Below are positions 4,035-7,769 of a stretch of 7,769 nt of DNA, piece by piece. The stretch spans positions 150,467-158,235 of the forward strand of contig PBDP01000004.1 in assembly GCA_002718095.1 (NCBI GenBank). The letters run 5' to 3'. This DNA is from Chloroflexota bacterium (lineage in GTDB: Bacteria; Chloroflexota; Dehalococcoidia; Lucifugimonadales; UBA826). How positions within the stretch are numbered: the first letter of the stretch is position 1; each line of letters starts with the position of its first letter. Made by a program: the position numbers and the translations under genes. The notes under the pieces were generated by a model, which searched no databases, had not been told where the DNA came from, and saw only the letters and a program-made list of their open reading frames with translations.

Positions 4035-6575
4035 ATGACAACAAATAAGACAGATTTCGGGTTTGTAGAACCAACTCAATTAGTAGAAGAAATGAGGGAC
4101 TCTTATCTGGATTATGCAATGAGTGTGATAGTGTCTAGGGCATTACCAGATGTTAGAGATGGGCTTAAGCCTGTGCAGCGTCGTATTCTATTCGCCATGA
4201 ATGATCTAGGAATGAGATCAAATTCTTCATATAAGAAAAGCGCTAGGTTGGTCGGAGAAGTTTTAGGTAAGTGGCACCCACATGGCGACGGGGCTGTTTA
4301 TGCTGCTATGGTTAGGTTGGCTCAAGATTTTACAGTTAGAATGCCTCTAGTTGACGGCCAAGGTAATTTTGGTAGTATTGATAATGACCCAGCAGCAGCT
4401 ATGAGATACACAGAGGCTCGACTTAGTAGTGTTGCCGATGAAATGTTAGCTAATTTAGATCAAGATACCGTTGACTGGACATCAAATTTTGATGACACCT
4501 TGAGAGAGCCATCTGTGCTCCCTGCGAGACTCCCCAATTTATTAGTTAATGGGGCTTCTGGTATTGCTGTTGGTATGGCAACTAATATTCCTCCGCATAA
4601 TCTTAGAGAAGTTTGCAACGCAATTAATGCATTAATTGATAATCCGGATTTAACATCGGAAGACTTAATTAAATATGTTAAAGGGCCGGATTTTCCAACT
4701 GGTGGAACAATTATGGGAAAAGAAGGTATTAGAAATGCATATACTACTGGTAAAGGGCAAATTATTGTTAGAGCAGTTGCAGAAGTTGAAGAAAGTTCTT
4801 CTTCAGGGCGTAGATTTCGAATTATTGTTACGGAATTACCTTATCAGGTCAATAAGTCGGAATTGATAGCGAAAACAGCATTGTTAGTTAAGAATAAGAG
4901 AATAGAAGGTATATCTGAAATCAGAGACGAATCTGACCGAGATGGGATGAGAATTGTTTATGAATTACGTAATGGAGTTCAGCCTCAAGTTATTTTAAAT
5001 AATCTTTACAAACAAACGGCTCTTCAGTCTTCTTTTTCGGCAAACATGTTGGCTTTAATTGATGGAAAACCGGCACTCGTCACATTAAAAACTGCTGTTC
5101 AGCAGTATATTAAGTTTAGGCAAGAGGTTATTAGAAGGCGAACAGAATTTGAACTGAAAAAAGCTGAAGATAGAGCCCATATTTTAGCTGGATTAAGAAT
5201 TGCTATTCAGAATCTTGATGAAGTTATAGCATTGATTAGAAGTTCAGATGATGTTGAGTCAGCTAGAACTGACCTAATGTCTAAATTTGATCTAGATCAA
5301 CCTCAAGCTCAAGCTATATTAGATATGCAGCTGAGACGTTTAGCTGCATTAGAAATTGAAAAATTAGAAAATGAATATCAAGATTTACAAAAGCTTATTA
5401 AAGATCTGAAAGATTTGTTGGCTGATGAAGATAAGATTAGGGCAGTTGTTAAAGATGAGACAGAAGAATTAAAAACTAAAGTTGCGGATAAGAGAAGAAC
5501 GCAAATAAGCTCTGCAGATTGGGATTTAAGTCGAGAGGAGTTAGAAGCTCACGAGCAAATAGTGATTACATACAGCCAAGGTGGATATGTAAAACGTATA
5601 CCTTCAGACACATTTAGAAGGCAGCACAGGGGAGGCAAAGGTGTGTCTGGAATGAACACAAAAGATGGTGATCCTATTAAGGACTTATTAGTTGTTGATA
5701 CCCATGACAAACTTATGTTTTTTACAAATAAAGGTAGAGTATTGTCTAAAGTTGGCTACGAATTAAGAGCTGATGTTAGTAGGAATACAAGAGGGGTACC
5801 TGTAGCAAATATCATAAATGTATGGGATACAGAATCTATTAGTGCTTTAATTGGTGTTGGTAAAAAACAATATGAAGAATTCCAATATTTAGTTTTAGGC
5901 ACTCGTAAAGGTCGGGTTAAGAGAATCAATTTAAGTGACGTAGAGAAAATACGTCCGTCTGGCCTGATTATTATGAATTTAAAAGATGATGATGAATTAG
6001 TTTCTGTTAAATTGGCTAAAGATGACGATGACATAATGTTTATATCTGAACAGGGCATGGGAATTAGGTTTTCAGTTAATGATTTACCTATAAGAAGACG
6101 AGCTGCAGGTGGAGTTAAAGGAATGTCTTTAAGAACAGGAGATAGGGTTGTGGCGATGGATGTTGGAAATGATGATAGTCGTCTAATGGTTATTAGTAAA
6201 TTAGGTAAAGGCAAAATTAATCGCTTAGGTCCTGCTTCAGGTGATGGGTATGGCTATAGAAGACAAGGTAGAGCAGGATTAGGTCTGAGAGCTATGAATC
6301 TGACAAAGAACACAGGCCCTGTTGCGGATGCTCAAATTGTTGATGACGCTCAGGAAGTATATATTGTTTCAGAAAATGCACAGATTATAAGAATAGACCT
6401 TAGGGAAGTTAAAAAGACTAAGGGGCGTATTTCTCAAGGAGTTAAGATATTTGATCCTAGGCCAGGAGATTCTGTGTCTTCGTTATATTGTGCAAAAGAG
6501 TTTGAAATTGAAGATGAACCCGCTAAAGAAGAAAAAACATCTCCAAAGAAATCTGTAGATAAAAAGAAAAAATAA
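4035..6575 (+). CDS. gyrA: DNA gyrase subunit A
   Basis: GyrA is the DNA-cutting subunit of the A2B2 gyrase, which puts negative supercoils into DNA using ATP bound by GyrB. The 846 residues are a normal length. The winged-helix/tower breakage domain covers about 10-500, with catalytic Tyr125 in [11 protein letters not shown] long coiled coil spans about 360-490. The C-terminal beta-pinwheel (about 505-820) starts with the GyrA box QHRGGKG (530-536; canonical QRRGGRG), which separates gyrase from topoisomerase IV. The tail after 823 is charged and ends in a Lys run. In the quinolone region, [11 protein letters not shown], the E. coli Ser83 position is Gly86 and the Asp87 position is Ala90, so both drug-anchoring side chains are missing. 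gyrB is not in the window. The gene has its own promoter and a good Shine-Dalgarno. Confidence 0.98.
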
Positions 6576-6598
6576 TTTACTATAATGTCTGTAAATTA
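6573..6598 (+). repeat. 8-bp hairpin at the gyrA stop codon
   Basis: TAATTTAC (6573-6580, beginning with the gyrA TAA) and GTAAATTA (6591-6598) form a perfect 8-bp stem with a 10-nt loop. It is AT-rich and probably weak. The loop contains TATAAT, which I do not take as a promoter. It lies just ahead of the much stronger stem at 6611-6650, and the two may act together at the 3' end of gyrA mRNA. Confidence 0.5.
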
Positions 6599-6610
6599 CC
6601 GTTCTTCTGA

Positions 6611-6650
6611 AGTTTCTGAGTAATAACTTTTTAGTTATTACTCAGAAACT
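6611..6650. terminator. 18-bp perfect hairpin between convergent genes, likely bidirectional terminator
   Basis: AGTTTCTGAGTAATAACT (6611-6628) is perfectly complementary to 6633-6650 around a TTTT loop. It sits between gyrA (plus) and the glycosylase gene (minus) and overlaps the TAG of the latter by two bases, the usual place for a shared terminator. Neither strand has a U-tract after the stem, so it is not a standard intrinsic terminator. It may instead block 3' exonucleases or work with Rho. Confidence 0.6.
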
Positions 6651-7566
6651 ATAGGGCATTTCGTATATCTGCAAACAGGTATATCGTCGCCCAACTTCTA
6701 TAAGGAGACCATATATTTGAGTAATCTAAAATCTGAGCATCTGACATTAGAGATTTTCTTTTCAATTTTTCTGTTATTATTTTCTGCAATGCTAAATCTC
6801 CAGATGGAAATCCGTCTTCGAATCCTAAAGAACCTATTAGTAGCCATTGAGCAGTCCAAATCCCTACACCTCTTAGTTTTATTAAATCCGTCATTGATGT
6901 TTCGTAGCTAGAATTGGATAAATTGTTTAAATTGAGTTCATTGGTACATATAGATTTTGCTATTCCCCAAATATATTCTGCTTTTCTATAACTAAATTTA
7001 TTGGCATGTAATTCGTCAATACCAACAGACATTATTTTCTCAGGAGTAGGAAATACGTAGTGAGTATCTCCATTTATGGTTAGTGATTCACCATATTTCT
7101 CTATTAGTAAACTCCGAAGCATATTGGCAACAGTAGTATTTATTTGTTGTCCGACTATTGCTGTCACTAATCCTTCAAATATAGAATTTGATTGAGGTAT
7201 GTGGAGACCCTTATATTTGTTAATTAAAGGTCCTAGAATAGGATCTGATTCATGCGCTTCATAAAATGAATTAGGGTTTTGGTGTAATCCCAATATTCTG
7301 GATAGTATATCTGTTGTTTCTTTTATATCTTGGTCAGATAAGTTGTCTCCTGTAATAGTAACTTCCAAAGAATCAGACTTGTCAGTAACTTCTGATAGTA
7401 ATAAACCGCTACTAGATTTAATAACTTTTTTGTAAGTTACTGAGTCATAAAACGTTGTAGAAACCCTTCCGTTAGGAGAAATACCTTCAGGAGAAAATAA
7501 GAAATCACATGTTTTATTGAAACTATATCCTTTTGGAGTTTCAATAAAACATGTTTTTATCTGCAT
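6649..7566 (-). CDS. AlkA-like DNA-3-methyladenine glycosylase II (HhH-GPD superfamily)
   Basis: This base-excision repair enzyme cleaves damaged, typically alkylated, purines from DNA. The 305 residues comprise an N-terminal AlkA-N-like domain (about 1-115), then the helical core with FEGLVTAIVGQQINTTVA (130-147). The helix-hairpin-helix LIKLRGVGIWTAQWLL (228-243) follows, then the catalytic Asp257 in FPSGDLALQK and the closing block WSPYRSWATIYLF (286-298), which matches AlkA WKPWRSYA. No iron-sulfur cysteines are present. The first ATG (7566) is the only sensible start: the next Met is residue 149, and AGGT lies 8 nt before it inside the upstream gene. That gene's stop is 2 bp away, so the two are co-transcribed and probably coupled. 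A 17-bp perfect inverted repeat falls in codons 5-20. The adaptive-response link seen in E. coli cannot be judged here. Confidence 0.92.
   Translation of the reverse strand: MQIKTCFIETPKGYSFNKTCDFLFSPEGISPNGRVSTTFYDSVTYKKVIKSSSGLLLSEVTDKSDSLEVTITGDNLSDQDIKETTDILSRILGLHQNPNSFYEAHESDPILGPLINKYKGLHIPQSNSIFEGLVTAIVGQQINTTVANMLRSLLIEKYGESLTINGDTHYVFPTPEKIMSVGIDELHANKFSYRKAEYIWGIAKSICTNELNLNNLSNSSYETSMTDLIKLRGVGIWTAQWLLIGSLGFEDGFPSGDLALQKIITEKLKRKSLMSDAQILDYSNIWSPYRSWATIYLFADIRNAL
7507..7554 (-). repeat. 17-bp perfect inverted repeat inside the start of the glycosylase gene
   Basis: ACATGTTTTATTGAAAC (7507-7523) is exactly complementary to 7538-7554 across a 14-nt spacer. In the mRNA the stem runs from +13 to +60 relative to the ATG, so a ribosome initiating at 7566 would meet it at once. 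Each arm carries ACATGT, and both encode Lys-Thr-Cys through AAA ACA TGT (codons 4-6 and 18-20). The 12-mer AAAACATGTTTT at 7546-7557 is itself a palindrome. The mRNA loop contains AAGGA. It may be a translational control hairpin or a protein-binding site. Confidence 0.85.
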
Positions 7567-7568
7567 TG

Positions 7569-7769
7569 TTATTTACCTGAAATAGTTACTCCTGCCATAT
7601 CTTCCATAAAATTTGATATAGCGGAGTGATCCAAATCGCCTTTATTGTCATTAATTAATGAACCAATGATTTGTTGAACTAAACTTGTTATTACTAGTGG
7701 TACCCCTACCTCTCTACCTGTAAGTATTGCGTTGTGCAAGTCTTTTTGATGTAAATTGATTCTGAATCC
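7569..7769 (-). CDS. 2-hydroxy-3-oxopropionate reductase / 3-hydroxyisobutyrate dehydrogenase-like, C-terminal part
   Basis: Only the last 66 codons are inside the window, and the start lies beyond 7769. The sequence GFRINLHQKDLHNAI, followed by GREVGVPL and a GDLDHSAI block, is characteristic of the all-helical C-terminal domain of the beta-hydroxyacid dehydrogenase family (GarR, GlxR, MmsB). These enzymes reduce tartronate semialdehyde or oxidise 3-hydroxyisobutyrate with NAD(P). The Rossmann domain and the catalytic lysine are out of view, so the exact substrate is open. A GarR-like role would fit the sugar-acid dehydratases nearby. The TAA ends 2 bp before the glycosylase ATG, and the gene supplies that gene's Shine-Dalgarno, so the pair is one operon. 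Confidence 0.85.
   Translation of the reverse strand, partial: GFRINLHQKDLHNAILTGREVGVPLVITSLVQQIIGSLINDNKGDLDHSAISNFMEDMAGVTISGK

Follow-up and report, generated by a model that had tools for sequence, protein, structure and literature searches.

We found that a DNA glycosylase gene of a marine bacterium, probably a SAR202-type Chloroflexota (1.44 Mb genome, GC 34%), contains, shortly after its start codon, a perfect inverted repeat that is lineage-specific and probably arose through a short-range template switch in DNA replication. The repeat spans positions 7507-7554 of the window, by which we mean the whole analysed stretch of 7,769 nucleotides, and its two arms (7507-7524 and 7537-7554) are complementary at 18/18 positions. 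The hairpin and the genes around it are arranged as follows:

6649..7566, minus strand: host gene of the hairpin, encoding an AlkA-like HhH-GPD DNA glycosylase of 305 aa, assigned by PF00730, a PDB match and orthologs
7569..7769, minus strand: C-terminal part of the upstream gene product, a 3-hydroxyisobutyrate-dehydrogenase-like protein (PF14833)
7537..7554, minus strand: 5' arm on the coding strand, ACATGTTTTATTGAAACT, codons 5-10 (TCFIET), the putative derived copy
7525..7536, minus strand: 12-nt loop, CCAAAAGGATAT, with CC/GG able to add 3 inner pairs
7507..7524, minus strand: 3' arm on the coding strand, AGTTTCAATAAAACATGT, codons 15-20 (SFNKTC), the putative ancestral template

On the coding (minus) strand the gene opens with ATG CAG ATA AAA, followed by the 5' arm, four loop codons, the 3' arm and GAT, with the stem starting at nt +13 of the ORF and the hairpin covering codons 5-20. 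The initial annotation had described a 17-bp stem with a 14-nt loop inside the coding sequence near the start codon of a DNA-repair gene; the setting, the position and the perfect pairing hold, but the stem measures 18 bp and the loop 12 nt. It had also stated that both arms encode Lys-Thr-Cys. This is nearly correct: the tripeptide KTC is present at codons 4-6 and again at 18-20, a consequence of the self-complementarity of ACATGT, but the arms translate as TCFIET and SFNKTC, with Lys4 just beyond the stem. When the mRNA was folded, as had been proposed, a stable stem was obtained, with a minimum free energy of -22.3 kcal/mol for the 59-nt hairpin core (z = -7.6; 0/200 shuffles equally stable) and of -31.3 kcal/mol for its 120-nt context (z = -4.2). 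Among 289 sampled genes this was the second strongest 5'-end fold, the strongest being that of locus L082, a low-complexity ORF that is probably spurious.

The host protein matches PF00730 (HhH-GPD) with 36.3 bits, above the cut-off of 26.2, and its best PDB match is the 3-methyladenine DNA-glycosylase 2jhj (E = 1.6e-21); against the NCBIfam AlkA model (PRK10308) it scores 79 bits, under the cut-off of 229. A wrongly assigned start codon, which would place the hairpin in the 5' UTR, is ruled out, as the G006 and G007 orthologs have an equally spaced ATG and the conserved domain is not preceded by any later one. The stop codon of the upstream gene lies 2 nt 5' of the glycosylase ATG, an operon-like spacing, and the glycosylase gene is probably co-transcribed from upstream. 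On the other side, judging by the translations, a DNA gyrase A gene appears to adjoin the glycosylase gene in the window as well as in G007 and G006. The gyrA and glycosylase genes converge, and the 73 nt separating them hold a second perfect 18-bp stem (6611-6650, 4-nt loop TTTT), which reaches the glycosylase stop codon; it is probably a bidirectional terminator, though too GC-poor for the consensus scan, by which no terminator-like pattern was found in 6500-7769. Elsewhere in the window, two ORFs on opposite strands with a short gap between them (3-872 and 1255-2301) presumably belong to the enolase superfamily (mandelate racemase type), going by the look of their translations.

The comparison with orthologs points to an asymmetric history of the two arms. 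The genus is represented by one genome, and the same-family orthologs, G005, G006 and G007, come from other genera and share ~41-48% amino-acid identity with the window gene; the order-level set comprises 92 ortholog loci, the window's own included (91 others aligned). Checked pair by pair, the three same-family orthologs form just 4-6 of the 18 hairpin pairs, and a comparable stem at this site was found in none of the 32 orthologs folded (these three and 29 further). A class-level search added just a few more orthologs, in which no CDS stem of at least 15 bp was evident at the glycosylase gene; relatives were found in none of the viral contigs searched and in two named genome contigs, both distant (a SAR202-cluster bacterium and a Dehalococcoidia bacterium). 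The 3' arm matches its counterpart at 14/18 nucleotides in G005, 13/18 in G007 and 7/18 in G006, and the 5' arm at 6/18, 5/18 and 5/18, respectively, which is the random level at this distance. At the protein level, the 3' arm retains Phe16 (77/89 orthologs) and Thr19 (81/89 orthologs), and Thr10 of the 5' arm replaces a Pro found in 77/89. According to the initial annotation, a functional element would be contradicted by relatives in which the pairing is absent and the arms vary independently; at the available distance this is the pattern seen, the 3' arm being conserved in two orthologs and the 5' arm in none. The distance from the ATG to the conserved Tyr14 is identical in G006 and G007, indicating that the 5' arm is a replacement rather than an insertion, and immediately 3' of the stem the homology to orthologs continues in the intact reading frame.

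A template switch is favoured because the putative source arm is conserved in two of the three same-family orthologs, the putative target arm looks new and the length did not change. In this scenario, the polymerase would have used ~18 nt of the 3' arm (codons 15-20) as a template in the reverse direction, or else repaired a previously imperfect palindrome at this place, such that codons 5-10 became the exact reverse complement of the 3' arm at unchanged gene length and frame. The sequence comparison suggests that the 5' arm arose from the 3' arm in a single templated step. The change may have been retained because the extreme N-terminus of the glycosylase tolerates replacement. The rewriting of the 5' arm appears to have been near-neutral, and any influence that a stable mRNA stem beginning at nt +13 has on expression would be incidental. 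Of the three readings that the annotation had offered (slowed or gated translation, binding of a regulator, templated strand-switch mutation), the last is the best fit, given the asymmetric arms and the pairing absent in relatives. Several observations weigh against it. With the nearest orthologs just ~41-48% identical and the N-terminus variable overall (loop identity to the nearest orthologs is 3-4/12), the 5' arm would be expected to match at random regardless of how it arose, and the 3' arm itself is poorly conserved in G006. P13, outside the stem, is likewise lost in the window gene, such that this part of the protein may just be under relaxed constraint in the family. In addition, the switch is reconstructed from orthologs of other genera.

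The hairpin could alternatively be an mRNA structure under selection, acting from nt +13 to damp or gate glycosylase translation, perhaps in coupling with the gene upstream. Its rank among 5'-end folds and its stability relative to shuffled sequences would suit such a role, as would the location of the stem near the edge of an initiating ribosome and the operon-like spacing. However, the stem is absent from every ortholog examined, a proline conserved in the family was lost within it, and the hairpin has no match to a known RNA family in Rfam at the gathering cut-off. Furthermore, the start codon and the upstream region are largely outside the strong stem, the stretch just 5' of the ATG being mostly unpaired in the 120-nt fold. 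We therefore consider selected gating unlikely. The stem may affect translation mildly, but selection for such an effect has no sign in its favour, and the proposal that the hairpin slows or gates translation gained no positive support.

Chance, aided by AT-rich composition (GC 34%) and a relaxed N-terminal sequence, is improbable as the origin of the pairing, even allowing for some selection in that the window had been read for anything unusual. We used as background 400 kb of the source genome, taken in stretches (363 kb CDS, 381 ORFs), from which genome-wide counts were extrapolated. Within the CDS of this sample the hairpin is the sole stem of at least 15 bp (loop up to 60 nt), and the other long perfect stems in the 400 kb were intergenic or at gene edges. 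Shuffling of synonymous codons in the 381 ORFs (25 replicates) produced 15-bp stems at a rate of 0.16 and 16-bp stems at 0.04 per replicate and never reached 17 bp, in agreement with the earlier judgement that the repeat is very unlikely by chance. When the same protein was recoded with the codon usage of the genome, all 18 pairs formed in just 4/20,000 recodings (mean ~12/18), indicating that the codon choice, too, follows the palindrome. It is thus very unlikely that independent point changes produced 18 perfect pairs. Inverted repeats of at least 12 bp were also in excess in the sampled CDS (12, as compared with 3 mirror repeats and ~3.4 in codon shuffles), as expected if template-switch mutations occur generally, although the other 12-14-bp coding stems may have arisen otherwise.

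Long perfect stems were also found elsewhere in glycosylase orthologs. The G006 ortholog (L100:17060-17099; the same as the L007 ortholog) has an 18-bp perfect stem with a 3-nt loop at about codons 68-80, the sole stem of at least 15 bp in the sampled G006 and G007 CDS (355 kb). This stem, whose 5' arm encodes Ser where 68 orthologs have Gly, is lineage-specific and independent of the window hairpin, at another site. An ortholog from a 71% GC genome (L159:1899-1956) carries a 16-bp perfect stem with a 25-nt loop, bringing the stems of at least 15 bp across the 92 ortholog loci to 3, against 0.03 expected from codon shuffles. With the window's stem excluded, there are 2 in ~82 kb of glycosylase orthologs and 0 in ~0.9 Mb of other CDS (p ~0.01, a rough count). 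This enrichment is suggestive, but it was spotted post hoc, the stems occupy different sites and the G006 contig had been selected for containing the glycosylase gene. The simplest reading of the extra stems is that the mutational process proposed for the window hairpin also hit tolerant regions of these orthologs; that the family repeatedly gains long perfect coding hairpins, either as a hotspot of templated mutation or through selection for hairpin-mediated damping of expression, is a long shot.

The perfect dyad symmetry near a gene start might also suggest a DNA operator or protein-binding site, but this is highly improbable, considering the 18-bp arms, the 12-bp spacer and the lack of a second copy in the genome. 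A genome search for the arm sequence, as had been advised, recovered the exact 13-base hairpin core just in the two arms, with eight further sites one base off; a single-copy hairpin speaks against a repeated operator. Moreover, a scan detected no promoter-like site near the hairpin, and its host gene is probably part of a transcript that begins upstream. A foldback artefact of assembly or amplification is conceivable, as the source has the appearance of a draft metagenome-assembled genome (94.6% complete, in 10 contigs), yet the in-frame homology just past the stem, the conserved length and the intact frame, together with the uniqueness of this CDS stem in the 400-kb sample, make it extremely unlikely. 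In-frame palindromic elements inside genes are known from Rickettsia, a precedent for the in-frame insertion of an RPE-like or MITE-like palindrome, whether mobile or dispersed; here such an insertion is largely refuted by the single genome copy and by the unchanged length relative to G006 and G007, which leave it next to no probability.

If a template switch is indeed the origin, this hairpin would be a clear natural example, in an uncultured bacterium, of one such event rewriting about six codons and creating a strong mRNA stem, and a caution that a perfect hairpin at a gene start is not always a regulator. Template switching can make perfect hairpins in one event (PMC8794818), acts at quasipalindromes in E. 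coli (PMC7202029) and in yeast genes alters as many as five adjacent amino acids (PMC8604942). The case described here resembles such quasipalindrome-correction mutations in its perfect inverted repeat, in a putative source arm conserved in two orthologs beside a divergent putative target arm, and in being local and length-preserving with several adjacent residue differences; it differs from them in that its origin is deduced from a comparison across genera rather than read, with its switch points, against a parent sequence. Translation-attenuating 5' mRNA hairpins likewise have a stable stem close to the start codon, but here there is neither conservation nor covariation, and the ribosome-binding region is not in the strong stem. 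The coding palindromes of Nematomorpha mitochondria (PMC6649704) are, akin to this hairpin, perfect inverted repeats within protein-coding sequence; those, however, are numerous, reach up to 284 bp and encode conserved residues in both arms, whereas the glycosylase gene has one 18-bp stem of which one arm resembles the relatives.
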